Source of the DNA: Chimonanthus salicifolius
Lineage: Eukaryota; Streptophyta; Magnoliopsida; Laurales; Calycanthaceae
Assembly: GCA_013350335.1 (NCBI GenBank)
Contig: CM023539.1
Coordinates: forward strand, 41,154,631 to 41,218,630
DNA length: 64,000 nt
Direction of reading: 5' to 3'
Shown here: positions 13,276 through 50,367 of the stretch, one piece after another
Layout of the letters: each line of letters opens with the position of its first letter
Numbering within the stretch: position 1 is the first letter of the stretch
The notes under the pieces: generated by a model
What the model was told of the DNA's origin: nothing
What the model saw: the letters and a program-made list of their open reading frames with translations, nothing else
The model's database searches: none
Program-made: the position numbers and the translations under genes

Positions 13276-13536
13276 CAAGGGTAAAAAAAACGGCCCATCC
13301 GAGATCTCGGCCGAGACGCCGAGATCTCAGGCCAGCCGAATAACCGCCGATATCTCGCCGATATTTCTCTCTCCTTTTTTTTTTAAAATCTAGGCCGTAT
13401 TGGCTGATATTGGCGAGATCTCGCCCTAAGGTCGATACATTTCATATTGGCCGAGATATCTCGGATTTTCTCGGGCGTCCAAAATCCGAGATATCTTGGC
13501 CGATATGAGATGTATCGGCCGAGATTTCGACCCCTG
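13276..13536. mobile_element. hAT-like MITE A with CGAGATATCTCGGCC palindromes
   Basis: Ends are CAAGGGTAAAAA (left) and TTTCGACCCCTG (right). It is flanked by exact 8-bp direct repeats ATCTAATC at 13268-13275 and 13537-13544. The 261-bp body is packed with CGAGATCTCGG, GAGATATCTCGG and GGCCGATA motifs in both orientations. No coding capacity is present. The 8-bp duplication and CAGGGG-type ends fit non-autonomous hAT elements. Confidence 0.75.
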
Positions 13537-13768
13537 ATCTAATCTGATCTGAACCCCTTTTGCCTTAGAAACCGTTTCAAAAATCTGTTCAATTCCAGGC
13601 CCAGTAACGTCTAAATCTGAGATCTGTGCTGTTGCTGTTTTTCCAGCTAATCCATCCGATCTTGCAGCTGCTTTAACACCTGAAGTCGCTCACATCTTAC
13701 TGCATTATTCTCGTCCACTACCAACCCTAATGGGGGCAGCAGCCATTAAGTTTGTATATTGCCTGAAA

Positions 13769-13941
13769 ACCCGCACAGGTAGTTCAGTTGGTCTAAGTTT
13801 CTAAGATTAGACTAGAGGTCTTGGGTTCGACCCCTTCCAGACTGACTTGATACATAAGATTTACAAGTCGATTTCGTGCATCAATTGGATTAGTCTCATT
13901 TCCAATGTGAGGTGGGAATACCCATGTTATAAAAGAAAAAC
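13769..13941 (+). mobile_element. tRNA-derived SINE (family 1)
   Basis: A tRNA-like A box (GGTAGTTCAGTTGG, about 13778) and a good B box (GGGTTCGACCCC, about 13823) are spaced as in a tRNA, followed by a body ending in GTGAGGTGGGAATACCCATG and an A-rich tail. The same 3' body occurs at 1990-2180. It lies between two hAT-like MITEs. Confidence 0.65.
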
Positions 13942-14326
13942 AAGGTCCACTAGGATCCTATCACCCAGGCGGATTTCCAAAACGGTTTTGTAGTGGATAT
14001 TTTTGGTTCTAAATCCTGGGATCTTGCTGTCTAAAACAGCACTTCAGTCGGCTCAAATCCAGGTCTAAATTGGAAGCCAAAGCCCAATGGAAATTTTCCA
14101 TTTTAGGCTTCTCAACGCCCAACAGGCCCAGCGTCCAATTTGTTGCTGTTTTAGCTTTTAAGTACAAGTTGGCATTTACCATATGGTAAGGTCCACAAGG
14201 ACGGCGAGTCAGTTGCTGACATGGATTCTTGAGTTGGGTCTACTACGGTAGCAAATGGGCTTAGTTTATTGGGCTTTTCGGTACAAGAGAGTGCTTGGGC
14301 CCTCTCTTCCCTTCGTCAATCCGAGC

Positions 14327-14482
14327 CAGGGGTACAAAAATCGTTTTTACCGAGATATCGGCGTCTCGGCCGATCTTGGCCGAGAGCTCTCTCTCCTAAA
14401 TTTTTTTTGACAAATATCGGCCTTCAAAACCCCGAGATATCTCGGCCGATATGCACAATATTGGTTGAGATTTATACCCCTG
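14327..14482. mobile_element. hAT-like MITE B
   Basis: Starts CAGGGGTACAAAAATCG and ends GATTTATACCCCTG, with exact 8-bp flanking duplications ATCCGAGC at 14319-14326 and 14483-14490. The 156-bp body holds CGAGATATCGG, CTCGGCCGATC and CGAGATATCTCGGCCGATAT motifs. It has the same termini and same subfamily motif as the element at 13276-13536. Confidence 0.8.
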
Positions 14483-14490
14483 ATCCGAGC

Positions 14491-15721
14491 ATAAGTTCAA
14501 AGAGCAAATCCATTAATTTCGTTCAGCTACTTTCCATGTGCGCTATGAGATGTTAAGTAACTTTTTTTCAAACATTTCTATAAACAGTCTAATAATATGA
14601 AATTATCTCAATATTATCTTTTTGCTAATACTCTGGTGAAAATTGTAAAGTTGGTTTTTAATTTATCCAATAACTATTGTTATACTTGCTAAGCAAAAAA
14701 TTCCTATATTGATGAACTTAATTTACGATTTAAATGGTAAGTCTAAAATGATATTTAAATGATCATATGAAAAATGAGCAGCTTACTAATATTGGAATGC
14801 CTTTATGTGGGATTCACGTGTATCCATTTAATACCATGTTTACAACGTGTTCTTTTAAGACTTCAATAAAAATATTAAGATTTTTTTCTTCAGATCAAAT
14901 TAAATAAGCCTCTCTACCTGCACATATCGAATAATTCTGATTCTTTAGGTAAAGTAAGAATTGGATTCAGGACCTATACATTAGTTCTTTTTGTTATTAA
15001 TTTGTATATTATTTTAATTATAAACTTAGTATTTAAAGTTACTACTAATTTTGCCTAAACAACAAATTCTTTACTGTAAAATTTCTCGAAACCTAATTTA
15101 GGTAAAGATAAATTGTTGAATTCATGAGAAATGAAAAACTTTTCGTGATATCTAAAACTTGTTTTGGCTTAAATTAAGTCAAATTAAAATATCTCAATAT
15201 TAAATATACATTAGATAGTTATATACTATGAGGACATTGTTTATTCAAAATTTTGGCTTCAAAATCTGAACAGATCTTAGAGCACTTGGGGCATCTATAT
15301 TCTATACACAAGTATTTAATTCATGTTGCATTTCATTACCGTGTGGTTGAAGTTTATTTAGAATACACTAAATATTTAGGATATTTTATATTTAGGTCTA
15401 TATCTATGGTTTAATTGTAAAAGAATTCTTGTATTTTTGTTATTGTAATTTTGCCCTTCACATTTAAAGGCCGTTTGCAATTAGATCTGTGTAATGTTGT
15501 TGCATGAGTATATTAAGTGTATTTCAATCAATACTAATTCATTTAAACACAGGAGACATACAAATGTAGATAATTTTTTTAATGGTTATCATATATTAAA
15601 AAAAAAAAAAAAAAGGTAGAATAAAAAAAAAGAAAAAGAAAAAGAAAGAAGCTCAAAATAGGAAAGAACCAAACTATCCAAAACACTGTTACAGGATCAA
15701 AACAGGAAACAAAAAGAGAAA
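14491..15721. other. AT-rich intergenic DNA
   Basis: No coding frame, RNA gene or paired repeat is evident. An A-rich simple stretch (A run followed by GAAAAA repeats) lies at about 15597-15650. Confidence 0.4.
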
Positions 15722-16375
15722 AGTGGGCTTTTGATTTATTCGAAACAACTATTTTACTGTCAGGAGATATAGTTTTTCTAGAAATGATGTAAAATTACCA
15801 TTTTGCTCTTTTATTTTAGATCTTTCGAATGAAAATAAGTTCTTTTTTCGTTCATTCGGACGATGAAACCATCCGAACGAACATTTCAACATAAAATGCG
15901 TTCGTTTGGACGGTCTTCTATGGGTGTGGAGAGGGATTTTTAAACGAGCCGGTTTCTCAACCGATTTTTACAAACAAGGTATCAAAATTCATCTAGTCTG
16001 AATTCTATGAACTCCGGTACTGATTTTAAGTGAAAAGGGTATAGTTTTGGACTTTAAAAATCGTACCCAAATAATTAAAGAAAAATCGTGTTCCCTCTTA
16101 ATTCTTTGGATATGATTTTTGAAGTCCAAAACTATACCATTTTCACTTAAAATCAGTCTCGAAGTTCATAAAATTCAGAGTAGATGAATTTTGATACCTT
16201 GTTTATAGAATCGGTCGAGAAACGATATCGTTTGAAAATCCCTCTTTACAACCCACAGGAGATGACTGGATATTCATTCTAATAGTCTAAAACAGAAGGG
16301 CAAAATGGTAATTTTACACTATTTTTGAAAAACGAAACCTCCTGACAAAAAAGAGCATGGTCTAAATAGCCCGCC
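15722..16375. mobile_element. Long inverted-repeat MITE (MULE-like termini)
   Basis: The two halves are imperfect inverted repeats about a centre near 16075. Examples are AAGGTATCAAAATTCATCTA (from about 15977) against its complement near 16185-16204, and ACTGATTTTAAGTGAAAAGG against its complement near 16140-16160. The right end read inward is GGCGGGCTATTTAGAC, close to GGGTGGCCATTTAGAC of the element at 51706-51896. Both arms carry AAATTACCATTTTG. No clear target duplication remains, so the ends are approximate. Confidence 0.6.
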
Positions 16376-22096: not shown

Positions 22097-22166
<70 letters not shown>

Positions 22167-24219: not shown

Positions 24220-27200
24220 ATCACTACACTAAAAAAGTGTGAAATTCAATATGGGGTGTCACCATAATTGCCTTTGCGGTCATCGTCATTGTCGTTGTTA
24301 TAAAATATACGGAGTGTCTCACTAGAATAAGAAATACAAAATCATGAGGAAAATGCTGCTTTAATTGAATAGTTTAACAAAATATTGTGTTGAATATTGG
24401 TGCACTTCCACATGTCAATTTCCTGCATAAAATCTTTTTTAAAACGTAGTAGTTAGGTAGATCATGGACCTCTATTGCCAGCCAAGTTGGATGATTGAAT
24501 CAAGACTTCTGAGTCAATTCATACTTGCTTGCGTATAATACAAATCATCCCAAACAATGGATTGGGCTGATCTAGTCACTTGTTGTAAAAGATCTTGTGT
24601 CTTGGGATGATGAAGACCCATTTAGATCCAAAAATAAATATCGATGGTCACAATTTACCAAGGGGTGTTTATCATTCATACAAAAAATTACTAATATAGC
24701 TCGATGATTAGTCGAGTGCTTTAAAAGACTTGAACACCTTAGTCATAAAAAAAGATCATTACTAGATCAAAAGCCTTCTAGGCCCTAAACAAATGAAGCT
24801 CGAATATCAATAAAAGCCGAAAGTTCAATTTACTTGGTCCATTTTAAGTTGAGCCTAATAAACAATACCCACCAACCCAACTTGACCTAAATGCGAGCTT
24901 CAGGGGAGGTGGATGGACCAGGAGAAAAATTCAGTTCGCTGATACTTTCTCTCTCCGGATTTGTTGTTCAAAAAATTCTGAAAAAATTACAGAAAATTTA
25001 TAAATTCTAGACTTCATTTACATGTAATTTTTTTTATTATTTTACGGTCATTTAGATATTTAAATGTAATTTTGAAGTTACAAAATTGGGAATTTTAAAA
25101 TATTTTTTAAAAAAGTGGAAAAACATAAAAAAATCCAAAAAATGGAAAACAAAGTCGAGTAATTTTCTGCTAATTTTCACCTAAATAATGATCATTTTGA
25201 GTTATTTTTATCATTTTTTTCAAGTTTTGACTCTTAAAGAATGAACATGTATAGCTCAGCCTTAAAGCTTTGATGATAGAAGAGTTAAATGGATCTGGGG
25301 CTCAGCCGTGCTTCACCTTCGAATGCCAGAAACTGAATAGGAAAAGACAATTTGACGAGGTATCCAGTTCGAATAGATTGGAATCCATTTTCTAATTGGA
25401 TTAATGGATCCAAATAGGGTTGAGCCTAAATGAAATAACCCAACTTGACTTAACCACTTGAACTTTAGTCTGGGTTGGAGGTTGTAGGGACCTAACATAG
25501 AGATGTCAATGGGTTTGGGTATGCATTGAGTCCTCAATTTTACAGATAAGGCTTCAAAACAACATCACAACTTCTACTGAGGGACTTTAAATTCAGTGTC
25601 TCATTCAAAAGACTGTATACAGATCTTCTCCATCTGGGCCTTCTAGTAATGACTGAGGGGCCTTTTTTTAACTGCCATTACAATTGGTGCAATATGTAGG
25701 GCCTACAAAAAAATTTAATCGGGGGGCCTTTTGGCCTACTTGGGCCAGGCCACAGTACGACGCTTTTACGATGTTGAAGATGGAGGAGATAGAAAAGGGC
25801 TGCCAAGCAACATCATGTTCCGATCCTTTTTCAGGCCATTGTTACTGGCAAGGGCCCAATTAATCAATATACTCATTGTCCATGTCTTGGATACAGGGGT
25901 CAACAGTACACAGCAATTATATTTAGGGGTACAACTTAGGTCCAGCTCTTATTGGTCCTGAATGACCCAACCAGGTCTTTAGGTTGGGCTAGAGGGTGAA
26001 ATTCCTCAACCCAAAATCCGAAATGATCAGCTTGCAAATAGAATAGCCTCAGAGCACTTGATTAATCCTTAGAACATGTGCAAACCTCTCTATCTACACA
26101 CCGGATAACGCTATGGAGAGTGACCCTTTCCATTCCTATTTATCGTTGGTTTGCTAGAAACCATTGGTGTTAATGATGTATGAACTTAACGAGTTAAACA
26201 ACACAAAGCCCTTTGTCCAAACTTCTTTTGAAGAATTTTGTTAATTGTTTATACTTATAGTGTAGAAGACTAAATGGGGGGAGAATAAAATAAAATAAAA
26301 TAACTCAGGTATCTTCTAATTTAACTCATGGCTTTGATCAATATATCAAGAAATGCAACGATTGCAGGAGCAAAGTAAGATTTGAAATGCTTCAAGAGCA
26401 GGCAACAATCCATCCCATCAACACCATTTCATTCACAATTTCCATTTCACATTCAAATGTTCATAATGTGAAATGTCGTGTGATTGAACTGAAGAATGAA
26501 ATGTCAAGTGTGATTACCATAATGTGAGCTTCAAAAAGCAGATTGGAAAATGAAATTTAATAGAACTGTAACTTCTAATATAGAGTTTTACATAATGCCC
26601 ACGTACTTAAAGAGAGGTGAGAGTCCTGGATTTCTTCATAATAAAAAAAAAAAAATGAAAGACGAAAAATGTACGATTTCAGCTGTCAAAAAATATCTAT
26701 TAACAGGTAGTTACATTCACATCCTTACGTGTTTCCTTTCAGCTCACTTTTGAAATCAGAGTGAGCAATCTAGTTGAATACCATAACTCTCCAACCCATA
26801 TAAAAATTGGAAGTGGCAACCCAATTAGGTGCACCATCAAGAACCATTGCACAACACAAATACAATAGAGGCACTCACAAGATTTCAGTGGGGATACTCT
26901 CTCCTGAAATGTTCTCTCTTCCTCTGATTCCATCATTGCGCAGGATATATCTTGCAATATTGTGTTTTCACCACATTCGGCCTTACTTATCGAGCACTTG
27001 GTAATATCTACTCTAAAGACTCTTCACGTCATACTTCGCTGATTAAATTTACACGAGACTATTTTCCTTTTTCCATGGAAAATTGCAATACTCGTCAAAC
27101 AAGCCTAAAATTTCAAACCACAGTCGTTTACCGCAGAGTAAGATACACCCTCAAGCCGATGCCATGTTGTAGGTTCCATCAGTAATTACCACACACCACT

Positions 27201-27222
27201 GTGGACAACAAGCATCTCCCTC
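24220..27222. other. Intergenic DNA between AHP and the PPR gene
   Basis: No supportable gene. The stretch 24950-25250 is an AT-rich repeat that resembles 36040-36240 (shared GGTCATTTAGA.AT and GAAGTTA..AAATTG.GA). A SINE-like fragment lies at about 26045-26130. Confidence 0.4.
26045..26130 (-). mobile_element. SINE-like fragment (family 2)
   Basis: ACTTGATTAATCCTTAGAAC, then GCAAACCTCTCTATCTACAC and GAGAGTGACCCTTT match the order of motifs at 12250-12360 and 46536-46661. Truncated. Confidence 0.4.
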
Positions 27223-27223
27223 C

Positions 27224-27411
27224 ATTTCATTTTCCATTCTTGCAGATGAGGCTCACCACATGGTTTTGAGCTCGAAAACCATGTCCAGACTTGACCTTCA
27301 CAGTGTTAGATTCATGGATTTCATTGTTCATTCTTGCAGATGAAGCTTACAAGAGGGTCTTAAGGTCAAAAACCATGTCCAAACTTGACATTCTCAGAAT
27401 TAGATTTGTGA
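27224..27411. repeat. 94-bp tandem duplication downstream of the PPR gene
   Basis: Copy 1 (27224-27317) and copy 2 (27318-27411) are adjacent and share ATTTCATT..TTCTTGCAGATGA, then CCATGTCC.AACTTGAC and TTAGATT. They differ at many positions, so the duplication is old. It lies about 180 bp beyond the PPR stop codon, probably in its 3' UTR or flank. Confidence 0.7.
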
Positions 27412-27588
27412 CAACCAACACTATACCAACTGCTTATCTGGTGGATCACGAAGTTCCAATTTGAGAAGTCTTAGAACTGGGATTATGTGCCAGCCACAAC
27501 AATGGCATTGCTACTGTGCTGCCATGGATTGGCTTGATGGTCATAAGGAATCTAGTACCATGACCTCTACTTGGCTAAAGTTTGAAAA

Positions 27589-29697
27589 TCACCAATAGTC
27601 CTTGCATGAACAAGATCCATTTCTAAAATGATGGAAGCGGCTATTATCCCTCACAATAATTTCCCGACCATAGATATCTGAGAGGAGCTTAGTAACTAAG
27701 TGGCAATCATTACAGACACGAAGGTTTTTCATCACTCGAATCGGTTGACCTGGTTCAACATTAATGAGACCAAAGGCAATTGCAAGCCGTTCACTGTGAT
27801 GAGCCAATTCTTCTTCCTTCTCCTTATCTTCTATGCACAACAAAACCTGTGTCTTGTCTGGAATATATCCTGCACATTTCAGCTTCTCTCTAATCTCATC
27901 AAGCTTTGAATAGATATCTATGGACCGAGGATGTGAGCCATCACCGACAATGAATGAATGGACCACACCCTTGTGTTCTATTGAACTGTGGCCAGGCTCC
28001 TTTTTCACTTCCCTTTTCTTCATTATTCCTCTCAAACTTGAGACATCATTCCACCTGCCTGCAGCAGCATAAATATTGGAGAGAAGAACATAGCATCCAG
28101 TAGCATCTGGAGCTAGCTCAATTACACGTTTAGCTGCATATTCACCAATCTCAATATTTCCATGGTTCCGACAGCCACTGAGAAGACTCATCCAAACTAT
28201 ATCATTTGGTCTCTTCGGCATGTTTTCTATCACATCCTTTGCCTCTTCCAAGTGCCCAGCTCTACAAAGAATGTCCACCAGACACCCATAGTGTTCAGTT
28301 GTGGGTATGATTCCATATTCATTTCTCATAACTTCAAAATACCGATGCCCCTCATCAACCATGCCTACATGACTACATGCATTCAATATGCCAATGAAAG
28401 TTATACCATTAGGCTTTATTCCATATATCTGCATTTCTGAAAACAATTTCATAGCAAGGTCAGCCATACCATGCATTCCCAATCCATTGATTATCGCAGT
28501 CCAATGCCCCAACCTTCTTTTAGGAATTGCATAAAAAACTTTCAGTGCATTCTCAATACTCCCACACTTGGAGTACATGTCAATAAGTGATGTGCCAAGG
28601 ACTCCATTAATCTTAAACCCATGTCTATCCATGTAAGAATGAATCTGACTACCCTCAGTAAGGAGACCTAAGCCTGAAGAGGCAGAAAGAGCACCAACCA
28701 AGGTCGCGTCATTTGGCACCATACCGGCCCTCAGTGCTGCATGAAATATCTCCAAAGATTCCTTGAAGCGTCCATTACATTCATACCCTGCAATCATAGA
28801 ATTCCAAGTGATAATGTTTCTCTCAGGCGCTTCATCAAATAATTGGTGAGATAGATCAACTTTCCCACATTTCATATACCCATCTATCATTGCATTCCAA
28901 GATACCACATTCCTCTCTGGCATCCCATCAAAAAGTTCACGCGCAATTTCAACCATGCCACATTTGGAATAGCCATCAATCATGGCAGTCCAAGAGAACA
29001 AATCCCTCTGAGGCATTTCATCAAATACCTTACGTGCCATCTCAATCTCCCTACATTTTGCATACCCATCAATCAAGGAGTTCCAGGAGACCAAATCTCT
29101 CTCCGTCATTCTAACAAACACCTTGTATGCGGATCCCATCTTGCCACATTTCGAATAGAAGCTAACTAAGCTACTCTGCACATAGATATCTGATCCAAAC
29201 CCGCTTTTCATAGCCAATGCATGAATCTGTTCTCCTTCCTCGATTGCACGCAACCGCGCACAACCCTTGATGACACAAGGGAAGGTAAAATTATCAGCTG
29301 AGACCCGTGAATCAAGCAGCAACCCATAGAAGAGGACAATGGCATCGTCCGAGCGGTGGTTCTGGACGTAGGACTTTATGATGAAATTCCAACAAAGGGA
29401 GTCGGGTTGTTGGATGCAGTCGAAGACAGATCTAGCGTAGTCAAGATTTCCAATTTTGAGGTCGGAGTAGAGGTTTAGGAGGCGAGAAGAGACGTGGGGT
29501 TGGTGGAAAATGCCGGTTTTGATGGTGGAAGCGTGTAACTGTTGGAGTTGTCGGTGGGTTTTGCAGGATTTGAGAAGAGAGAGATGGAATTGGGATTGGG
29601 GTTGGGGTTGGGGTTGGGGTTGGGATTGAGATTGAGATTGGGGTTGTTGGGGAAGGCAAGGTTCGAGGGGCGTTTGGATTGCTGAGAATTTCAGCAT
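27589..29697 (-). CDS. DYW-class pentatricopeptide repeat protein, organellar RNA editing type
   Basis: Single intronless frame of 702 aa from the ATG at 29697 (MLKFSAIQ). A longer in-frame reading from a TTG three codons upstream is not needed. After a Gln/Ser/Pro-rich stretch (residues 17-36) comes a PLS-type PPR array with repeated DLVSWNSLIDGYAKC-like and RNVVSWNAMIDGYMKC-like units to about residue 510, then E/E+ motifs and a PG box (KKEPGHSSIEHKG). A full DYW domain of about 114 residues contains HSE (H634, E636), CNDC (C662, C665) and the terminal KDYW. Known role of the class: binding organellar transcripts and, with an intact zinc-dependent deaminase signature, C-to-U editing. The site it edits and whether it goes to plastid or mitochondrion cannot be told. 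A foldback transposon begins only 320 bp upstream of the start. Confidence 0.96.
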   Translation of the reverse strand: MLKFSAIQTPLEPCLPQQPQSQSQSQPQPQPQPQSQFHLSLLKSCKTHRQLQQLHASTIKTGIFHQPHVSSRLLNLYSDLKIGNLDYARSVFDCIQQPDSLCWNFIIKSYVQNHRSDDAIVLFYGLLLDSRVSADNFTFPCVIKGCARLRAIEEGEQIHALAMKSGFGSDIYVQSSLVSFYSKCGKMGSAYKVFVRMTERDLVSWNSLIDGYAKCREIEMARKVFDEMPQRDLFSWTAMIDGYSKCGMVEIARELFDGMPERNVVSWNAMIDGYMKCGKVDLSHQLFDEAPERNIITWNSMIAGYECNGRFKESLEIFHAALRAGMVPNDATLVGALSASSGLGLLTEGSQIHSYMDRHGFKINGVLGTSLIDMYSKCGSIENALKVFYAIPKRRLGHWTAIINGLGMHGMADLAMKLFSEMQIYGIKPNGITFIGILNACSHVGMVDEGHRYFEVMRNEYGIIPTTEHYGCLVDILCRAGHLEEAKDVIENMPKRPNDIVWMSLLSGCRNHGNIEIGEYAAKRVIELAPDATGCYVLLSNIYAAAGRWNDVSSLRGIMKKREVKKEPGHSSIEHKGVVHSFIVGDGSHPRSIDIYSKLDEIREKLKCAGYIPDKTQVLLCIEDKEKEEELAHHSERLAIAFGLINVEPGQPIRVMKNLRVCNDCHLVTKLLSDIYGREIIVRDNSRFHHFRNGSCSCKDYW
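29592..29624 (+). repeat. TTGGGG-type repeat inside the PPR coding region
   Basis: Six G runs of three or four bases separated by TT or ATT occur on the plus strand, i.e. the template strand of the PPR gene. They encode the Gln/Pro alternation at about residues 25-36. The pattern satisfies a G-quadruplex motif. Confidence 0.75.
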
Positions 29698-30016
29698 TTT
29701 GTCCAACGCCGATTCCTTCTTCAGTACACCTCGCTGCCGGTTTCCATGATTGCAGCAGACGGAAATTGAAGAATACCTTGATTAGATTAAATCACAAGAG
29801 AAAAAATACACTACAAACGTCACTCAAAAAAATAAAAAAACAAAAGAAAAAAAATAGTTCTCACCCTTTTATCCAAATTCCATTATTTTCCCCTCTTTGT
29901 TTTTTGTCTCACATTAACTCTCGTCCACGTGGTGCGTTGCTGTTAATGTCAGATTTTGCTGTGGTCTGATATTTGCAGTCTTGAATTCTCTCTTATTAAA
30001 GTTTAGAATTATTTTA
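29698..30016 (-). promoter_or_regulatory. Upstream region of the PPR gene
   Basis: Only about 320 bp separate the PPR start codon from the foldback transposon. The stretch is A-rich in the middle (29815-29850). No certain TATA box or transcription start is visible. Confidence 0.4.
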
Positions 30017-30339
30017 GGGTCTCCAGTTATACATCCGCAAAATCTCTCTTTATACATCCGTTTTTATTTTTTTAAGTGACTAATTACCATTTTGTCCCAA
30101 TATTTTTCTTAGTTCGAATGAATTCTGAGTTAATTTTGTCATTTATTCGAACAAATGGACATATGTCCATCTAATTTGATTCGTTCGAACTAATCCCCTT
30201 TATAAATCCATTTATTCAAATGAATGAAACGGGTGAACAGTAACACCCATGTTACTGTTTACCCATCTGAATGAAAACTGGTGAACAGTCACCCGTTAAT
30301 GAATAAGTAATTCATTCGAATGAATCGATTTTTTTTTAA

Positions 30340-30970
30340 ATTTCAAAATTATTTTTTAAGCATTGTGTATTTTCAAAAGTTTTCAAATTAAATATCCGGA
30401 CTAATTACTTTGATAAAAATACTTTAACATTTCAAGGTGTTTTGACACTCCGAAATATTTAAAACATAGTATTTTACAAATACGAGTATCCCTAGAGTGT
30501 GCCGAAAACATATTTAGGAGTGTCAAAAGACCTTTAAGTCTTAAAGTATATTTATCAGGTCATCGTAATTAATCCGGATATTCAATTTGAGAAATTTTGG
30601 AAATACACAGTGCTTAAAAAATAACTTTAAAGTTTTAAAAGAGATTTTATTATTTAATACACTATGCACATTATTTTTTAAGCACCGTGTATTTTCAAAA
30701 TTTCTCAAATTGAATATCCGGACTAATTACGATGACCTGATAAATATACTTTAAGACTTCAAGGTCTTTTGACACTCCTAAATATGTTTTCGGCACACCC
30801 TAGGAATACCCTTATTTGTATAATACTGTGTTTTAAATATTTAAGAGTGTCAAAACACCTTGAAGTCTTAAAGTATTTTTATCATATTATTTTAATTAGT
30901 CCAGATATTTAATTTAAAAAATTTTGGAAATACATAGTGCTTAAAAAATAACTTTAAAATTTAAAAAAAA
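30340..30970. repeat. Inner palindrome of the left arm
   Basis: From TTTTTTAAGCATTGTGTATT the left half runs through GGACTAATTAC, TTGACACTCC and TGCCGAAAACATATTTAGGA. The same motifs return as complements between 30668 and 30965. About 50 bp of unpaired spacer containing TTTAATACACTATGCACATT lies at the centre. Confidence 0.8.
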
Positions 30971-31208
30971 ATCGATTCATTCGAATAAATCAATTCATTG
31001 GTGATTCCTTCGGATGAATCACTGATTCATCAATTCATTAGTGGTTCATATCACTAATTCAGTTCATTAGAATGAATCAGGCTGATTCATTCTAATGAAC
31101 TGATTCATTTTTTTTTAAATTTCAAAGTTATTTTTTAATCACTGTATATTTCCAAAAATTTTCAAATTAAATTTCCGGACTAATCACTGTATGTTTTGAC
31201 ACTCTTAA

Positions 31209-34200
31209 TGTAATACCCTGCCCCGGATTAAGCATGTTTTAGCTTAATTTCGTGTTTTAACCGGATGATCTCGAGGTTTTTAGTCAGGGCTTTGAGGAAA
31301 GCCAAGCGAGGCCCAATCCGAGGCCGTAAGCTCGGTGATCCAGCCCGTCGAGCTGGAGGGATATTTTGGTAATTTTACCGTGTGTCGTATAAATTTTCAT
31401 AATTGGTGCGAATTGTTGATTTTCATTGATTGATAATACCCTCTTTTGAATGATTTGCATTCTAAGTTTTAAATGAATTTATTTTTCAGAAAATGATATT
31501 TAAATATCGCCCGAAAGAGAGTTTTAATTATTTTAAATATTTTCGGGAAGGAGTTAAATTTCGAAAATGGTATTGGGTGTTAGACCATTGTAATAATGAA
31601 CTAGATATTTCATTTCATCTCAAAATAAGATGTACAAATTAGTTATTTTTACATTTGTTTAATTAAGTAATTATGGGTAAAATGTGATTTTTTGTTTAAA
31701 TCAAAGGTTTTTAACGAGAGATAGTTCATGTAATTTTTATGGTGACCTAAGTTTTAAAAACCCAACCCATCTGTAAGGTTGGATCTGACTTTAGAGTTTT
31801 AAATTTATTACTTGTAGTTTAAAAATCAGTTTTTATGAAAAATAGGGCTTATCTGCAAATTTGTTTTCGATGGAGGGCTAATCTGCAACCGCAGGATTTC
31901 CTGTCAACGCCATGCAGGCGTGCTCTGGCCACTCGGCCGGATTTCCTGAATTTCCGGCAATGATGAGTGCAGTCGTCCCATCCCATCTCTTACCTTACCG
32001 ACGAATGATGAGAACTCCGTCTGTCCCGTCCCATCGCTGCTGCTGATTGTGCAGCTGATTTCCGGCGTCTCTCCTCAATCCAAATCCTATAAATTGAAGC
32101 CTTCGTCGATCATTTGAAACTCCCAGCTGAATTGCATTTTCTCTCCTTTCTCTGTTCTCTGTTCTCTGTATTTCAAAACAGACCCGTTTAAGCACCAAGA
32201 GCCTCTGTTAAGCTGCTGTTTTTAAGTAACAGTGAGCTTAGAGGAAGAAACTTCAAAAATCCGAATTTCAAATCAGGAATCAAAACCAAGGTATCCATTG
32301 CATTCCTTTTTAAATTCTAACCGATTTAGAATCAAACAAAATCGATTTTGACCATGTTTCCAATGAGAAAAACCAGTTTTAAGTTTTAAGGAAAACCATG
32401 GGTTTCATGTACCCGTGAGGATTTACCCTTAAAATCGGATGACCCTTTGAGCTTTTGAGCTCCAAACCTCCCCCTATGGAAAGAGGACTCCCAGAGGAGT
32501 CCATCAGACCAGACGGATGTGAAAAATGAATCCGGGAAGCCCTCCCTTTATGGAATCGCATTTCACCCTGTTTCCGCCGTCACTGTCTGCTGGTGCAGAC
32601 AGTTGAGGAAGACGACTCTCGGAAGGACCGAGAGTCGTTCTTCGGAAGGTCCGAACCTTCGGACGGTCTGACCCTCGGACGTTCCGAGCTTCACCCCGAA
32701 GCCCAGCACGCCCGAGGCAAACCTGACCCTTCGGACGCACCGAGCCGAGCTCGGAAGGACCGAGCCCAGTTCGGAAGGACCATCAGCCTTCGGACGTTCC
32801 GAGCTTCAACCCGAAGCCCAGACCGCCCGAGGCGAGCCAGATCCATTTCGGAAGGACCGAACATCTTCGGAAGGTCCGAACCAGCCTTCGGACGTTCCGA
32901 GCTCTGCAGACCCACCAGACTTCTATTTTCTGTTTTCTGTCTGTTCGGATGGACTTCGGACGGTCCGAAACCCAGTCTTCGGACGATCCGAAGTCAGGCC
33001 TCAAGTTCCGAGGCCAGAGACCCAGTGTTGAGTGGTTCAGATGATCCGAAGCCACTGTACCCAAGTTCCGAAGTGATGTTCCGAGGAACACAGTTTTTAA
33101 AAGAATAAAATATTGTGTGATTACCATTTTAATCTTGATTATTATTTAGTTAATGTAATTGCTCGTTGACGATGATTTAAACCCCCCTGTTAATTAAAAT
33201 TGTACTAACCCTTTTTCCTCTTACTATTTATAGTGTAAATACTATTGTATACGCTTTCAGTCCGACACTAGTCGGGAACTGAGTGATTCACTTTCAGGCC
33301 GGCACTATAGTTGGGCACTGAGTGACCTCGAGGCCTACTCAAAATGTCAGCTCTGGTCCCATCCAGAAGACAACCGAGAAGTGACCCGAGGATCTAGACC
33401 TTACTCAATAAGTCAATCAGGTCAATGCCCAGAAGACAATATGAGTTTGGACTGAGCCCCTTATGTTTATTATATTATTATCTTGTGGATAAATTAAAAA
33501 GGGATAGAAACCAAGTAGGAGACTCATTCCATTAAACCCGATATTTTGTGGGAAAATATATGATTTCCAAATTCTACGTATATGTACGTATTTGTTATGT
33601 ATATTGATTGAGCACTTGTATGTTGTTTGAACAGAGACCGCGAAACCACACAATCACGGTGAGGGAACTTAACTCTGCAGATTTTGTAAACAGGTGTTAT
33701 TTTGAGCAATGAGTGGTTTCGGTTTTGATGAACCCACTCATGTGCCTATACATGATGCACTATGGTAAGAGTGCTGGGATGATTTGATATTACGGTGTTG
33801 ACCGTATGTGTATGTAAGACTGCTTCCACGTACCTGGGCTATTGAACCAATATCGGCCATATGAGAGATGGTTTATGTCTACTGGACCATGGGCGGACCA
33901 TGCTGTCGTCAGTTGCTGACTTGAGGGTGTCAGTATCGGCTAAGTTTAAGAGCCGGAGATGTACTTGTAAGGATGTATTTTGACCGTGTCGGGACTTAAT
34001 ACTGGTCTCAGTGTAGTCGGCAGGTGTTACGGTGGTTAATGGCAGTGATTGATAGTTGATGATGTTATTATCTGATTTAAGATTATGCTTACTGTTGTCA
34101 AGCATGTGATTAACTGTTGTTAACCTGTTTTATATTTACTTAATGTGCATTGTTAATTATCCTTCACTGGGCTAGTTAGCTCACACCACTCACCTTTCAG

Positions 34201-34615
34201 GCAATGAACCCGAGGAGGAGGACCCTCTCTTTCAGGCTTAGGGCGTTTGAGCTAAAACAGTGTTTTGGGATTCCCCCGGAGCGGAATGCCCCGATCTCCT
34301 TCTGTTGGTTCTTGGAACCGTTGTTTTTGCATTAATTTGTATTTGACTTTTGTAATCGGCTATGTTGCCATTTGAGACGATGTTATAGATTGATTTATCA
34401 ATGTTGGTATCTGTTTGATCATTTTTATGAGTGGATGTTATTGTTGTGTTGAGCATATGGTACATGTTTGAGTCCACTTATCAGGCTGATGTGTAACCGC
34501 TGGGCCTAACTGTTGATCCTGCCCAGTAAGAGTGCTTGTGGTTTAGTTTACTTATCTTTCAAAAAAAAAAAAATCAGTCGCGTTCCGGGCCCACCGGTCG
34601 GGTCGGGGCGTGACA
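31209..34615. mobile_element. Solo LTR (3.4 kb), probably Ty3/gypsy type
   Basis: Begins TGTAATACCCTGCCCCGG and ends GGTCGGGGCGTGACA, with exact 5-bp direct repeats CTTAA at 31204-31208 and 34616-34620, so it inserted as one unit into the right arm of the foldback element. TG...CA ends, the 5-bp duplication, no internal pol and the 3407-bp length fit a solo LTR of a large-LTR element. A TATA-like CTATAAATTGAAG lies at about 32087. The GC-rich dyad array at 32616-33085 lies within it. The superfamily is inferred only from the termini. Confidence 0.75.
32616..33085. repeat. GC-rich array of TTCGGA..TCCGAA dyads
   Basis: More than a dozen copies of CTTCGGACGNTCCGAGC and TTCGGAAGGTCCGAAC-like units occur with irregular spacing, each nearly palindromic around GG(A/T)CC or CG. 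The array is strikingly GC-rich compared with the rest of the window. Open frames through it on both strands (for example 32593-33108 plus) are a by-product of its composition and show no domain. Confidence 0.8.
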
Positions 34616-35425
34616 CTTAAATATTTAAAACATAGTATTTTACAAATAAGGGTATCCCTAGAGTGTGCCGAAAACATATTTAGGAGTGTCAAAAGACCTT
34701 GAAGTCTTAAAGTATATTTATCAGGTCATCGTAATTAGGCCGGATATTCAATTTGAGAAATTTTGAAAATACACGGTGCTTAAAAAATAATGTGCATAGT
34801 GTATTAAATAATAAAATCTCTTTTAAAACTTTAAAGTTATTTTTTAAGCACTGTGTATTTCCAAAATTTCTCAAATTGAATATCCGAACTAATTACGATG
34901 ACCTGATAAATATACTTTAAGACTTCAAGGTCTTTTGACACTCCTAAATATGTTTTCGGCACACCTTAGGGATACCCTTATTTGTAAAATACTGTGTTTT
35001 AAATATTTCAGAATGTCAAAACACCTTAAAGTGTTAAAGTATTTTTATCAGATTATCGTAATTAGTCCGAATATTTAATTTGAAAAATTTTGGAAATACA
35101 CAATGCTTAAAAAATAATTTTGAAATTAAAAAAAAATCGATTCATTCACACTTCACGGGTTAACAGTAACACGGGTAAACAGTAACCCGCGTAACTGTTC
35201 ACCCGCTTAATTCATTCCAACTAATGGGTTTAGAAGGGTGATTGGTTCGAACGAATCAAAATTGGATGGGCTTGATTCTATTCGTTCGAACAAATGGAGA
35301 AATGAACTCGGAATTCGTTCGAATGAATGGAAACACAGGGGCAAAATGGTAATTAGCCACCTTCACCCGAAAATGGGTGTGTAGAGAGAGATTTTCCGGG
35401 TGTGTAAACGGGGACCCTTATTTTA

Positions 35426-36752: not shown

Positions 36753-36870
36753 TATATATATAAGGTGTTTAGAAGCTAATACCTTGATAAATAAAATTCT
36801 TCAAAAATCCTGTCAAAAACTTGCACGAATGAAAGATCCAATGTCTCAATCGACTTTAGACGGTGGAGAT

Positions 36871-37455
36871 CTAAGGTTTAAATATCGGCTGATACATATC
36901 GTATCGGCCGATATATATATCGGCTTTTTTAAACCGAGTAATATCGGCTGATACGATAAATATTGGCCGTACAGGCCGATATTCGGTCCGAAATATCGGT
37001 CACAATATCGGCCGATATTCATAAATATCGGTATTTAAAAAAAAAAAAATTTAAACACCGATACGGTTTTTCGCGGTTTTTACACGGTTTTTCACGGTTT
37101 TTCACAGTTTTCCACGGTTTTCTAGGGTTTACGGTTCTCAGGGGTATTCACGGTTTTTTGCGGTTTTCACGGTTTTTCGTGGTTTTTCGCGGTTTTCTAC
37201 GGTTTTCCGCGGTTCAGGGTTTACGGTTCTCAGGGGTGTTCACGGTTTTTTTACTATTTTTTGCGGTTTTTTGCGATTTTGTCACGGTTCATCACTGTTC
37301 ATCACGGTTTTTTGCGGTTTTTTCATGGTTCCGATATCGGAGGAGAGAGAACATGCCGATATCGGTATAAGAGATAAAATTATCGGCCGATATATCGTCC
37401 GTATCGCATATAGGTCGATATTTACATATCGGCCGAGCCGATTTTTTGACCCCTG
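36871..37455. mobile_element. hAT-like MITE C with a CGGTTTTTC minisatellite
   Basis: Ends are CTAAGGTTTAAATATCGGC and CCGATTTTTTGACCCCTG, and the 8-bp duplication GTGGAGAT is exact at 36863-36870 and 37456-37463. Terminal parts are rich in ATCGGCCGATAT palindromes. Between about 37060 and 37340 lies an array of CACGGTTTTTCGCGGTTTTT-like units. An open frame across it (36963-37370) gives a Phe-rich repeat and is not a real gene. Confidence 0.8.
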
Positions 37456-38439
37456 GTGGAGATATCACAAAATAGACCAGAAATTTGTTAAAACTGAGCT
37501 CAAAATCATCGAAATGGTGGGTTAGAACACTTAAAAAACTCTTGAAAGGGATAAGGGTCGGTTGATGCTCGTAGGAAATGAGAAAGGAGAAGAGAAATGA
37601 CAGAAATTAAGGGTCTCTCTCCCGTGTAGGGTTCACACATTTAAAAAAATATGTTGCTCAATACCTTGCTCAAAGCTGTCGATATTTGACACAATAATAC
37701 AACTGCTTTGGGCACTAGGTCAGGCTCATCAATATTGACTGACACGCAATGCAGAGTATCATCCGCATTGTTGCACCAGCCAAATTTCTGTAACTTATCA
37801 GCCGATATCTTAACCCAAATTTTCTAACTTAATAGCATTTTCATGTAAAATGCTTTTCTCAACACAAACTTACCAAGTTATCATATTTGTCCATAGAGTT
37901 ACCTTTTTGCTTGCCCCAAATATACTTTCTTTGAAAATACAAATTTAGAAGAAATACTTTGATTTTTTATTAATTTAAAATGAGATATTAAAAAAAAATT
38001 TAAAAAAATAAGAGTAAATTTCCTTATAGATTCTTTAAGTACAAATATCTTTAAAACGAGTGGTTGATCTTCCAATTCAATAGGAGAAGAGAGAGAGAGA
38101 GATGCAATAGTGTTTTTTTTTTTTCTTTGGTTCTCATTTATAGTTTCCTTCCACTCACTTAGTAATTGAGTGATGATAGAAGACATGTACCCACGTTCCT
38201 TCACCATGATTCATAGGGTGAGGTGTTTCACCACAACTACATAATTATGGGTGACAAAGTGGAGATTCTTCTCTCTCATGACTTTTGAAATAGTAAAAGT
38301 GGGAGTAATTTAATGGGCCCAATGTTGGACTTGGTCCTACTTAAAGCCCGATAACCATTCGAGGCCCAATCTCTTACCAACAAACTATTATGGCTTTGCT
38401 TATTTATGTGTTGATTAGTTAGTCTACTTGGTCCAAGAA

Positions 38440-41822: not shown

Positions 41823-43704
41823 TTAACAGTTGGAACTCACAAAGTTCTTAATCTCCTCCATAACACTATAGTAATGGTTGGTATTTGGGAGCAGGTAGAA
41901 ACCAATTGTTGACTGTTCAAGAAAGATGAGTTTCACATCTTGGCCTGCCTTCTCTAACCCTTCTACATAAGCCAGTTGCCAGTCGTGGACAAGATCAAGA
42001 CCAGCCACAATCACGAGGCTTTTGGGAAAGGCAAGGCCATCGAGCTTTACGGCATTGGGACCAAAGGGGTTACAGGCCGGATGATCTCTATCAGCCCCTT
42101 CAGGTAGAAATGCCTTCCAATACCAATCCCTGTCTTGAATCGTTACAAAGTATTTTCCATCCAATCTTCTCTCAGACTCTGTTCTCTTCTGGCCACCGAA
42201 CATCGGAGTAAGAAGAATGTTGCCCAAAACATTGATGTCAGATTCCATTGCCTTCATCGCGACATGGTGGACAATATTGCCACCGGAACTGTCCCCAGCC
42301 AGGAAGATATGCACCTTGGAATCCTTCCCACTCCGCAGCCAGGCCTGGGAATTCACCCATTTAAGAGCGGCCCATCCATCATCATAGGCACATGGATAAC
42401 GGTTTTCTGGGGCTCTCCTGTAATTCACAGAGATCACGATTGCATTGCAGATGCCCACAAAGCGGCGACAAAGTGAGTCATAGATGGCGCTGTTGGCAGA
42501 CGAGTGTGCAAAACTTCCACCATGGAAGAAGATTATAACAGGGACGACCGTGGAGCTTGGGGCCTGCTCAAGATCAAGAACACCCATTTGGCTGTCAGGG
42601 GCTGGTTGGTAAACACGACTCAAGAGGCCTGTAGGACGGTCGACAATGATGTCAAGGGAGATTACGCCATCAACTGGGGTGGTGTTGGAAGGGACCTTGC
42701 GGTCCAAAAATTCAGCTAGGTGCCGATTGAAGGTGCCATCAGGACGGCGGAGAAGATTATAAGCCAGCTTAAAATTGGAGATGAGAACCCAAGTATTAAG
42801 AGGGACCACCATCTGCAGAAAGCAAAATAATTTCAATTCAAATAAAACAGAAAGTAATTCTCTTCTACTCCTTTCAAATGCGTGGAAAGGAAAATGCTTT
42901 CTAAGAAATAGAAAATGTAAAATTAGACACAAGTTAGAGATTGTGATCAATTAGAAGTATTCTCCTGTACATTCATCCGAATGGAGCCATAAACAAGCTG
43001 TAATCATTCATAAAGGCAAACACTTTCCTGTCTTTTTCCCTTCGTTACTTTCTTTCTTTTTAAGCACAAACATTTCAAGAAACAACAGCTTCAAAATTTC
43101 GAATTGAGCTGCCCAGGAATCCCAAATTTGTATACAGACCGGATTTTACCGTCTTATTTACTGTAATGATCTCCTAGAACAAGGCCAGTGAAATTTCCAG
43201 TTCCAGAAATTACCGTAAAGAAAACAAAATGCGAAAAATGAAAATTTCACACCCTTTCCACGAAAGCAAACCAAACGCATATCCACCCAAATCAAGATTG
43301 GGGCAGCTAAGCAACTCTGCACCACCATCCAAAGGCAGGCACCCAAAATCGTACTCCAAAAAAAAATCCTCTCCATTTGTCGAACTTTGATCTTCCCATA
43401 CACGAGCAGTCTCCAAAACCACTCCAACTCTTCGTTTCTATACACGGAAAGGAGATTACTTTCTTGGAAATTAAGAGTTTTAAACCAAAAAAATTGAACT
43501 GAGTTTTCTTCCTATGCATCGAACCGGTGGTTAACTTTCTATTCCACCGAGCCCAAGCAAACCCAATTCCTAAAAAACAAAAAAGGAAGCCAAAATCAAC
43601 AAGAAGAGAAGAAAAAAAATGTGGAAGGGAGAGGGGGAGAGAGAGAGAGAGAGAGAGGCAAATACCTTGGATTCATTGACGTTAACCTCGTTGCTTCCGG
43701 CCAT
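41823..43704 (-). CDS. GID1: Gibberellin receptor GID1
   Basis: Two exons on the minus strand: 43704-43666 (MAGSNEVNVNESK) and 42812-41823, joined over an 853-bp GT-AG intron, giving 342 aa. The intron position after the short N-terminal exon is the conserved one for GID1. The N-terminal lid reads MVVPLNTWVLISNFKLAYNL; the alpha/beta-hydrolase core has HGG (110-112), GDSSGGN (Ser188) and Asp286, while the catalytic His is replaced (TIGFYLLPN, Ile316). That substitution separates the receptor from active carboxylesterases of the same family. Known role: nuclear/cytosolic binding of bioactive gibberellin, closing the lid and recruiting DELLA proteins for SCF-mediated degradation. The frame runs further upstream in the intron, but the splice sites and family alignment decide the start. 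Subtype (GID1A/B/C) is not assigned. Confidence 0.96.
43632..43656 (+). repeat. (GA)n microsatellite in GID1 intron 1
   Basis: A GA run lies within 10-35 bp of the donor site of GID1 exon 1; on the coding strand it reads as CT repeats just after the donor. Confidence 0.85.
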
Positions 43705-46535: not shown

Positions 46536-46661
46536 TTTTACAGTACCTACCTGACTAATTCTCGAGATAAACGCAAATCTCCTTATTCACACACACCAAT
46601 CAACTCTACGAAGAGTGACCCTTTAGGGTGAAACCAGAATCGAACTCAAGACTCAAATAGG
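46536..46661 (-). mobile_element. SINE-like element (family 2)
   Basis: Read on the minus strand: GAGTTCGATTCTGGTTTCAC (B-box-like), AAGGGTCACTCTTCG, GGAGATTTGCG and AGAATTAGTCAGGTAGGTAC. Similar blocks occur at 12250, 26045 and, on the plus strand, 54853. Confidence 0.5.
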
Positions 46662-47329: not shown

Positions 47330-47420
47330 AAAAAGCGTGACGAATTTGAACGACTACATGACTCAAACTTAAGACCTCTAATTTATAAGTCAAAATGTCT
47401 ATCAGTTGAACAGCCCCATG
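47330..47420 (-). mobile_element. Possible SINE fragment
   Basis: The minus strand reads GGCTGTTCAACTGATAGACA at the head and AGAGGTCTTAAGTTTGAGTC further on, which resemble the A and B boxes of a tRNA-derived SINE. Confidence 0.35.
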
Positions 47421-47649
47421 TGAGACGGTAAAATTGTAATGACCTAGACACCTTATTTAAGCATTTTCATGAGCACTTCTTTGTAAGGCCCACTTGAACT
47501 AATATAATTGAGTTTGGTTGAAACTCGGACTGATTTGAAAAAATTCCATCATTGTTGTAAAATCGTAAAAAAGTGGTCAGACTTGTCGATTTAACCGATT
47601 TTCTTAAAAAAATTGTGAACCGTGGCCCATAAAAATTGGTTCAAAATTA

Positions 47650-47790
47650 TAATATAATTTTTTTTTTAATCTACATGTGGAAAACCGCAGGAAATCCAGT
47701 GTAAAACTCCTATAGGTGATATCCACTGCCCTTAAGGTACATTACTTTAGGCCATGAGGAATCCATGAATTAAACTTTAGTTAACAATTT
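47650..47790 (-). mobile_element. SINE-like fragment (family 3)
   Basis: A T run, then TCTACATGTGGAAAACCGCA and AGTGTAAAACTCC...GTGATATCCAC, is the reverse complement of the tail half of 48701-48868 with some differences. The head is truncated. Confidence 0.5.
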
Positions 47791-48197
47791 AATATTATTA
47801 ATAATATCATATTGATGACACGAGTTTAACTACGATTCAACTCAATTGAACCTTATTTAACCCAACATTGTCCTGAGATGGTTTAGTAGACGGGCTGATT
47901 TTTAAAACAATGAAAAAGATTTTTTTTTAAATAGAACACCTATCAAATTAGATTAAGTGAAACTTTATTTTAAGGATTCAAATTAAGAGTCATTTTAATC
48001 AATTTTTGACCCAATTTCTAGTCGACTTCAAGGACATGTAAAAATGCAAGGACAATAAGTAAAATTTTATATCCATCTTATTATTTTAGTCACTTAATTT
48101 TAGACCTTTTAAGATCTAGTTGTTATAAGTTATTGATTTTTTATAGCCTGGCTCACAAGCTTACGTTGATTTGATAGAGGAGCTTCTCTTAAATAAT

Positions 48198-48387
48198 AAT
48201 TCTACCGTTCTATTTTAGTTGTCTTATTTGAAACATTTGTATTTTTTAAAGAACTCCCTGTATAAAGCTAGCACTCCATATTATCTCATCTATTTTCAAA
48301 ACACTTTATCCTACTCAAATATAAATGAGACAACTATTTTGAGATAATTTCAAAATTCATATAAGACAACTAAATTGAGACAGAGAG
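48198..48387. mobile_element. Decayed Stowaway-like MITE
   Basis: The left end TACCGTTCTATTTTAGTTGTC-like and right end GACAACTAAATTGAGACAGA are inverted relative to each other. The interior (AACATTTGTATTTTTTAAAG, AACTCCCTGTATAAAGCTAG) matches the reverse complement of the copy at 22935-23125. A TA follows the right end at 48388-48389. Confidence 0.75.
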
Positions 48388-48700
48388 TATAAGTCTTCTA
48401 TTCATCCCACTCAACTGTGCAAGATCACCACTCATGATAAATCATCAATCTAGTCTCCTTAGAGTTTGGATTATTTTAAAAAATAAAAAACCACAAACGA
48501 AATAGAGAAATGGAATACGAGAACAAAGGAAGAAAGGGTTTTGTCTTTTTTATTATTTTAAAATAGATTATTTTCTATTAAAAAGAATTTTAAAAGCCCC
48601 ATAAGTGATTTGACAATTCTATAAAATGTTACACTACTATAGATGTTAAGAAACTCTAAATGTTTCCCCAACAATCTCAAATATGCTTAGCTAAATTGTC

Positions 48701-48868
48701 CACACAGTGTATTTTAATTGGTTAACTTCGCGCCTCAGAAAGCAGAAAGTATTAAATTCGAATGTCCATGGCGTAATATGGTGTATCTTAAGGGCTGTGG
48801 ATATCACCTGTGGAGGTCTTATACTGGGTTTTCTGTGATTTTCTACACATAAATTTAAAAAAAAATAA
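48701..48868 (+). mobile_element. SINE (family 3)
   Basis: Head TTTAATTGGTTAAC..CGCGCC (A-box-like), then ATTAAATTCGAATGTCC (B-box-like), a body with TTAAGGGCTGTGGATATCAC and ACTGGGTTTTCTGTG, and an A-rich tail. It is the most complete copy of the family in the window. Confidence 0.5.
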
Positions 48869-49294
48869 TTTATTATTATCATTTAAATTAAAAAATAATT
48901 GAGAGAAATGTCTTTTCATTAAAATAAAATAAGATAAAATGTGTTCCTATATATCTTTAGCTGACAATCACATGAGGCGACATCATCTTCACATTAGAGA
49001 AATTCTTTAAAGGTGATTATGTGGGGCCATGAATACAGTAAAAAGGGATGGGTCCCACAAGAAACATCATCTGTATGAAAGAAGGTTGCTTAAGAGAAGA
49101 CCCAAAAGGTTTTGTTTTTTTCTAAATGAAAGGCCACATTTTTCTTATGTCCACTCTAATCTAAATGGCAATAATAGGGACACACTTTAGAGCATCATTT
49201 GAATTTTGACCTTCTTTATATAATTAAAGTTAGACGCAATCTTTGCCTCTGATTGTAAAATGACACTTAAGGCTTCCTTCTTTATAGTTTATAC

Positions 49295-49507
49295 CAGGGG
49301 TATAAATATCAGCCAATACATATCGTATCGACCGATATATACTAGTTTTGAAAGAGTGAATATCGACCGATATATATCGTTATCGACCGATATTCACAAT
49401 ATCGGCTGAAATATCGGCCGATATTGGTTGGAGAGAGAAAAATATCGGCCGATAACGATATATCGATCGACATATCGTATCGGCCGATACCAATTTTTAA
49501 ACCCCTG
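49295..49507. mobile_element. hAT-like MITE D with ATCGGCCGATAT palindromes
   Basis: Starts CAGGGGTATAAATATCAGCC and ends CCAATTTTTAAACCCCTG. Flanks GTTTATAC (49287-49294) and GTGTATAC (49508-49515) match at seven of eight positions. The 213-bp body is mostly repeated ATCG(G/A)CCGATAT palindromes. Confidence 0.8.
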
Positions 49508-49965
49508 GTGTATACGGGCGAAGTTTGCTACTTAGTCTAATATGTGGCATTTAAGGTTTTCATAGGAAGTGGAGTTTTTCATATTTTCATAGGCTTCCAT
49601 CTTCATACAAACTTAAAATTTTAAACACATATCATCACAAATTAATAAATTATTTTAAGAAAACATTTCTATTCTTAAAATATAAATGAGCCACTCATTT
49701 TTTTTGTTTTACCTCACAAAATTTACAGGCACTGTCACAAAATTTCGAGATTTTAAAGTATTTTCACCAAAAAATTCTTTGTTTTTTTACCTTAAAATTT
49801 ATGACTTCACAAATCTAATCTACCTGATATTTTATATCTCTTATCCCATTACCATTGCTTTTTTGCAACTATTTTAATTTTTTATTATGAAAATCTATAT
49901 TTCCATTTTGTAATAATCTCTTTCGAATTGGTTTGCATCTAAAACAGTTTGACACCAATGTGTAG

Positions 49966-50367
49966 CAGGGGTCTAGATATCGGCCGATACGAAATGTATC
50001 GGCCGATATCATACAAGTTTTAAGCACCATATAATATCGGCCGATACGTATTGTATCGGCCGTACAACCTTCATATCAGCCGATATGGACGATATGTCGC
50101 CGATATATATCGGTTCGATATCGGCCGATATGATTAATATCGGTATTTAAAAAAAAAAATTCAAAACGGTAATGGGCCACGTCAAAATATTGGCCGATAT
50201 TTACATTTTCAAATTTTTTTTTTAAAAAAAACAGTTTCTTTTTCCCTTTTTTTATATTTTTTAATTCAGAAAAAATAAAATAATAAAATAATAGCTATAT
50301 TTTTTAAAAAATAAAAGGAGGAGAGAGAATCATATCGGCCGAATTCGGGCCATTTTTTGCACCCCTG
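49966..50367. mobile_element. hAT-like MITE E with ATCGGCCGATAT palindromes
   Basis: Starts CAGGGGTCTAGATATCGGCC and ends GGCCATTTTTTGCACCCCTG. Flanks ATGTGTAG (49958-49965) and GTGTGTAG (50368-50375) match at seven of eight positions. The left half is dense with CGGCCGATA palindromes; the right half is A/T-rich. The family is the same as at 49295-49507, only 460 bp away. Confidence 0.8.

Follow-up and report, generated by a model that had tools for sequence, protein, structure and literature searches.

We analysed a stretch of 64,000 nucleotides from Chimonanthus salicifolius (GenBank assembly GCA_013350335.1, contig CM023539.1, positions 41,154,631–41,218,630; the whole stretch is called the window) and found five short elements, E1–E5, that are probably non-autonomous, Ac-like miniature inverted-repeat transposable elements (MITEs) of the hAT superfamily. 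They would form one divergent family with paired TCGG|CCGA sites that are predicted to bind transposase and are phased at one end of the element. The family looks new but belongs to a well-known kind of element; it is not a new class, and no new mechanism is required. The elements and their target-site duplications (TSDs) are as follows.

13276..13536, minus strand: E1, candidate hAT-type MITE of 261 bp, of the T(C)TCGGCCGA(G)A flavour; measured from the 13536 end, palindromes are centred at 18 and 37 bp.
13268..13275, no strand: left TSD of E1, ATCTAATC; right copy at 13537–13544, an exact 8-bp duplication.
14327..14482, minus strand: E2, candidate hAT-type MITE of 156 bp; palindromes 18 bp (poor, 8/12) and 37 bp (11/12) from the 14482 end.
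14319..14326, no strand: left TSD of E2, ATCCGAGC; right copy at 14483–14490, exact.
36871..37455, plus strand: E3, candidate hAT-type MITE of 585 bp with a degenerate left terminal inverted repeat (TIR; CTAAGGT).
36863..36870, no strand: left TSD of E3, GTGGAGAT; right copy at 37456–37463, exact.
49295..49507, plus strand: E4, candidate hAT-type MITE of 213 bp.
49287..49294, no strand: left TSD of E4, GTTTATAC; right copy GTGTATAC at 49508–49515, one mismatch.
49966..50367, plus strand: E5, candidate hAT-type MITE of 402 bp.
49958..49965, no strand: left TSD of E5, ATGTGTAG; right copy GTGTGTAG at 50368–50375, one mismatch.

A preliminary description of this stretch had proposed five elements with 8-bp duplications, and its coordinates were right: an 8-bp TSD is present at 5/5 elements (three exact, two with one mismatch), and when duplication lengths of 4–12 were tried, length 8 alone gave at most one mismatch in all five. 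The duplications match nTnnnnAn at 8 of 10 diagnostic positions (T at position 2 in 5/5, A at position 7 in 3/5; binomial P = 0.0023, from a small sample). The common CAGGGGT...ACCCCTG ends that had also been claimed begin with an exact CAGGGGT at eight of the ten tips but not at the left ends of E1 (CAAGGGT) and E3; the window contains 15 copies of CAGGGGT versus 5.3 expected. A profile of all ten ends reads CAGGGGT-NN-AAA(A/T)ATCGGCC over positions 1–20 and is conserved for approximately 20 bp, positions 8–9 excepted; because it finishes in ATCGGCC, the TIR takes in the first half-site of the palindrome. As a search pattern for the family ends we give CAGGGGTNNAAAWATCGGCC together with 8-bp duplications. 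A strict scan for TIRs and TSDs (at most one mismatch summed across both ends and the TSD) recovered 4/5 elements, compared with a mean of 0.007 and a maximum of 1 in 300 random offset controls, and a lax scan (at most three mismatches, length up to 3 kb) returned six pairs, compared with 0–2 in 14 offset controls. Four of the six are E1, E2, E4 and E5, and the other two (25894–27569 and 33691–34980) were taken as chance pairs. E3, whose left end has decayed, was missed by both scans, and it therefore rests on its right end, its exact TSD and its body. As in MITEs, the elements are short (156–585 bp), apparently non-coding and exist as five related copies with common ends; structurally, the earlier hAT-type reading is backed by the 8-bp TSD, the nTnnnnAn bias and the conserved ends.

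The elements could instead be MITEs of another superfamily with 8-bp duplications, such as the P elements, which leave duplications of this length, or some less familiar group; the superfamily is assigned here by ends and TSD only. P elements are also listed among the plant MITE superfamilies (PMC7385995). However, the nTnnnnAn bias and the (A/T)CGG subterminal sites described below fit hAT, and we consider a different superfamily highly unlikely.

The copies are recognizably related. The sequence GGAGAGAGA occurs once, exactly, in each of the five elements, outside the palindromes, and nine times in the remaining 62.4 kb.

13366..13374, minus strand: GGAGAGAGA core of E1.
14388..14396, minus strand: GGAGAGAGA core of E2.
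37342..37350, plus strand: GGAGAGAGA core of E3.
49430..49438, plus strand: GGAGAGAGA core of E4.
50320..50328, plus strand: GGAGAGAGA core of E5.

Being common to all, this core gives the elements a shared orientation, with E1 and E2 on the minus strand and E3–E5 on the plus strand. Between-element blastn matches of at least 46 bp are 70–80% identical, and because this pairwise similarity is limited, the elements appear to be old or diverse relatives rather than the products of a single recent burst. The copies lie as two close pairs (gaps of 790 bp between E1 and E2 and 458 bp between E4 and E5) and one single, and therefore occupy effectively three places; the very high genome copy number suggested earlier is unsupported. 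The paired MITEs (13276–14482 and 49295–50367) agree in flavour and orientation despite the considerable divergence between copies; two pairs are too few to distinguish linked insertion from a hot spot.

One palindromic motif is concentrated in the elements. At up to three mismatches, TATCGGCCGATA has 36 matches in the 1.617 kb of the elements (22.3 per kb) versus 10 elsewhere (0.16 per kb), making it about 140 times denser inside; at up to two mismatches, its only outside occurrences are at 31505, 37796 and 52000. The copy at 37796, which has a single mismatch, lies 341 bp past E3. On the plus strand, every occurrence of CGGCCGATA (11/11) and of ATCGGCCGAT (10/10) and 17 of the 19 occurrences of TCGGCCG fall inside elements, and exact CGAGATATCTCG has two copies only, one in E1 and one in E2. 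Perfect palindromes of at least 10 bp cover 13–30% of each element versus 1.7% of the sequence outside; compared with 200 dinucleotide shuffles per element, this coverage was above every shuffle in E3–E5, tied with the highest shuffle in E1 and fell short of it in E2 (0.154 versus 0.256). The view that the bodies are palindrome arrays holds when imperfect copies are counted but was overstated for perfect palindromes of this length. The further view that the motifs expanded to fill the element survives loosely in E1, E2 and E4; in E5, much of the middle is A/T-rich filler, and in E3, 260 of the 585 bp are taken up by a tandem array found by the program TRF.

37063..37322, plus strand: tandem array inside E3, period about 10, unit ACGGTTTTTC, approximately 27 imperfect copies.

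We speculate that this array of ACGGTTTTTC-like units may be a second route to extra A/TCGG sites. Two CAGGGGT copies, 92 bp apart, are internal to the array.

Ranking of 4-mers without a prior motif (all k-mer rankings were computed with the tandem insert of E3 set aside) placed TCGG/CCGA first, with 72 copies and 16-fold enrichment; the leading 5-mer was CGATA/TATCG and the leading 6-mer CCGATA/TATCGG. Among the 36 matches to TATCGGCCGATA, the A of TATCGG is the most variable position of the half-site (16 mismatches, 11 of them A>C/T>G), compared with 4, 9, 8 and 7 mismatches at the successive bases of the TCGG core. Two palindrome flavours had been distinguished in the preliminary description; their difference is real and lies mainly in one base outside the core, but a single motif, T(A/C)TCGGCCGA(T/G)A, accommodates both. 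Because the 11 changes at the half-site A create the other flavour, the two flavours are best described as one predicted site, T(A/C)TCGG|CCGA(T/G)A, with TCGG|CCGA as its core. Where a TCGG has a CCGA downstream in its element, the two abut without a gap in 16 of 32 cases, and (A/T)CGG is present at 56 per kb inside the elements versus 6 per kb outside.

CpG dinucleotides are in excess inside the elements (observed/expected ratio of 1.4–2.35, versus 0.53 outside), and among the 24 mismatches that fall on a motif C or G, 18 are C>T or G>A changes, as cytosine deamination produces. Both observations would suit arrays that serve not as transposase sites but as targets of a host factor or as small, CpG-rich elements with a regulatory or silencing role. 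The CpG excess, however, follows from the TCGG/CCGA content, which counts against this explanation, and the site position relative to the cleavage site, kept at one end of the elements, is unnecessary for regulation; we give the explanation hardly any credence.

That position was measured by sliding the 12-bp palindrome across distances 12–59 from the ten element tips. Distances of 18 and 37 bp stand out (on average, 8.0 and 7.8 of the 12 bases match, versus 4.8 at the next-best distance), and the signal comes mainly from one end of each element. At the phased ends (right in E1 and E2, left in E3, E4 and E5), the site at 18 bp matches at 11, 8, 11, 10 and 12 of 12 positions and the site at 37 bp at 10, 11, 12, 11 and 12, respectively. 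The unphased ends (left in E1 and E2, right in E3, E4 and E5) give 8, 4, 6, 4 and 6 matches at 18 bp and 3, 3, 5, 7 and 4 at 37 bp, and their nearest sites with at least 10 matches are at 35, 43, 23, 24 and 29 bp. Every tip (10/10) has a match to TATCGGCCGATA of at least 10/12 within 12–59 bp. The phased pair of E5 has the following position.

49978..50008, plus strand: two phased copies of TATCGGCCGATA in E5, whose centres lie 18 and 37 bp inside the tip.

Gaps between successive palindromes measure 18–20 bp in 10 of 31 cases, compared with a mean of 2.3 and a maximum of 9 in 20,000 random placements. The strength of the phasing result is that site position is conserved while the spacer bases differ. 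Together with the (A/T)CGG enrichment, the fixed tip distance at one end backs the earlier reading of the palindromes as clustered transposase-binding motifs, a function that is predicted from sequence.

The palindromes of hAT MITEs might also serve no binding function: slippage driven by hairpins, or template switching, could have amplified a self-complementary stretch that merely persists. As single strands, all five elements have better folds than any of their shuffles (100 or 200 per element; z of -4.7 to -9.0), nested dyads, in which a short loop separates two palindromes, are present and E3 carries its array of approximately 10-bp units, all as such a process would leave them. It would not readily account for the tip distances of 18 and 37 bp kept at one end in five elements (the first site of E2 being poor) when the copies are only 70–80% alike over their longer matches, nor for a ten-end profile in which the first palindrome (positions 14–19) is more informative than the spacer (positions 26–31). 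We consider this origin of the palindromes unlikely.

If the palindromes are transposase sites, each would consist of two inverted TCGG half-sites (TCGG|CCGA) on which an Ac-like transposase, encoded elsewhere, could place its BED domains in pairs. At the phased end, the two sites with centres 18 and 37 bp away from the cleavage point would hold a transposase multimer in position and set up the complex, with the sites of the opposite end placed less regularly, and additional internal sites may raise transposase recruitment and so favour amplification of the element. It is possible, though we hold it only tentatively, that a magnoliid hAT lineage has a transposase that works on a lattice of perfect palindromes approximately 19 bp apart, with the success of an element set by its number of phased paired sites; such MITEs would be almost pure 'transposase antenna', and divergent copies would be alike mainly at their TCGG|CCGA sites and in the distance of these from one tip. 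Biochemical studies of the choice that hAT transposases make among many non-autonomous copies, and of the role of subterminal repeats, cover few elements (for example, Ac, Hermes, Herves, Tgf2 and Kat1). The regular layout found here is a convenient test case, in which clean, phased and countable paired sites could tie site number and spacing to genome-wide copy number.

Several points weigh against reading the elements as hAT MITEs with paired transposase sites. No hAT domain, and no autonomous partner, was found in the 40 open reading frames (ORFs) scanned with Pfam among the 166 stop-to-stop ORFs of at least 70 amino acids in the window, and exact-pattern scans of viral and prokaryotic contig collections yielded no copies, which says little for a plant family. 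In the 4-mer ranking, ATCG/CGAT is a close second (70 copies, 16-fold) and CGGC/GCCG, in third place, has a higher fold (24), so the counts do not settle the core. GCGG units stand beside ACGG in the E3 array (between 37040 and 37330, 12 ACGG, all on the same strand, and 7 GCGG, split 6 to 1 between the strands). The window's top (A/T)CGG density, 18 per 200 bp versus 17 in E3, is at 32.6–33.1 kb, in a stretch that has neither these ends nor the palindrome, and (A/T)CGG density alone is therefore not specific. With respect to phasing, the 18–20 bp gap window was picked after the gaps had been seen; E2 contributes no gap of this size and has only 8/12 matches in its 18-bp palindrome; and, the copies being related by descent, their shared phasing does not amount to five independent observations. 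The hexamer of Ac, AAACGG, is present in two copies across the five elements together, whereas the criterion for the Ac/Ds family proper is at least three. Finally, the site of Hermes, a hAT element of the house fly, is AAG(T/C) where the elements have TCGG, and the likeness drawn below is of geometry alone (PMC10368747).

The dense stretch (32600–33080) is a palindromic repeat of another kind, built of TTCGGA(A/C)GGTCCGAA-like units. Considered as a relative of the elements, it was set aside as a separate feature, having no CAGGGGT nearby and no TATCGGCCGATA at up to two mismatches; a 171-amino-acid ORF overlapping it has no Pfam match.

Other searches gave no further copies. With nhmmer at E 1, no locus apart from the five was found across the window (some matches to the E3, E4 and E5 queries overran the element edges), and blastn matches at 10254, 11167, 19068 and 19506 were rejected as further copies, as they look low-complexity. 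The ORF spanning E2, the one element whose ORF was scanned, is without a Pfam domain. Searched against predicted proteins, an alignment of four element translations gave 26 candidates, none with an E value of 10 or better, and the E3 ORF that runs through the tandem array gave 38, none at 0.1 or better. Rfam at gathering scores had no match in the window. Literature searches, with most subscription journals outside their coverage, listed no titles under which palindrome-filled hAT MITEs are described; one of three motif strings appears in 50 articles, and none of the 20 among these whose titles were listed deals with transposons.

The Pfam scan of the 40 ORFs identified a PPR-DYW gene (27592–29781, minus strand), a gibberellin-receptor-like gene (41826–42950, minus strand), whose protein has its best relatives in Chimonanthus praecox, at 89% identity, and in Persea americana, at 87%, in keeping with a host in the order Laurales, a 2OG-Fe(II) oxygenase/ShK exon (11534–11839, plus strand) and a Copia-type retrotransposon (about 56.4–60.7 kb, minus strand). 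Two 60-bp tandem arrays with an identical 24-bp consensus and score (56258–56317 and 62007–62066) flank the Copia ORFs and may lie within the two long terminal repeats of the Copia element. Weak, sub-cut-off Exo_endo_phos matches at 3595–3891 and 4190–4510 (E values of 5.5e-5 and 0.006) possibly mark a decayed long interspersed nuclear element. The window also holds other inverted-repeat structures. Two visibly similar long inverted repeats at 30305–31187 and 34616–35133 have longest arms of 222 and 175 nucleotides that are 92% and 95% complementary, with 46 nucleotides between the arms in both, and probably represent another foldback or inverted-repeat element family. A nested inverted repeat of about 560 bp at 15774–16332 (arms of 63, 45 and 113 nucleotides) is MITE-like.

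Among the known hAT systems, Ac has a short TIR that starts with CAGGG and an 8-bp TSD. The sites of its transposase are ACG, TCG and A/TCGG, on both strands and in direct and inverted orientation (PMC1978519, citing Becker & Kunze). The five elements resemble Ac/Ds in their CAGGG-type TIR, 8-bp TSD and A/TCGG subterminal sites (PMC1978519 for the Ac sites), and they are short and non-autonomous like Ds1, the short non-autonomous relatives of Ac that are alike in little beyond their ends and mostly lack AAACGG hexamers as well (PMC3260210). Unlike in Ac/Ds, the sites often form abutting inverted pairs (16/32), recur at a spacing of roughly 19 bp and account for much of the element's length. 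Short TIRs of 10–25 bp (PMC3942097) and subterminal repeats at each end (PMC4890040) are described for hAT elements in general. BniHAT-1/2, hAT MITEs of Brassica nigra, are likewise short elements with TIRs and an 8-bp TSD but, unlike the five elements, measure 666–673 bp and are 70–75% A+T (PMC7385995); the main text of that article contains no words starting with 'palindrom' or 'subterminal'. Hermes prefers nTnnnnAn targets and makes 8-bp TSDs, and bp 11–27 of its left end form a quasi-palindrome that is held by two BED domains in cooperative binding, the two ends being asymmetric (PMC10368747). The elements share with Hermes the 8-bp nTnnnnAn target, a palindromic site near the tip and asymmetric ends: the Hermes quasi-palindrome is centred on bp 19, and the first palindrome of the elements between bp 18 and 19. 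Hermes, unlike the elements, has one other palindromic repeat pair only, far inside (PMC10368747). By analogy with these two systems, the elements would join an Ac-type half-site to a Hermes-like position.

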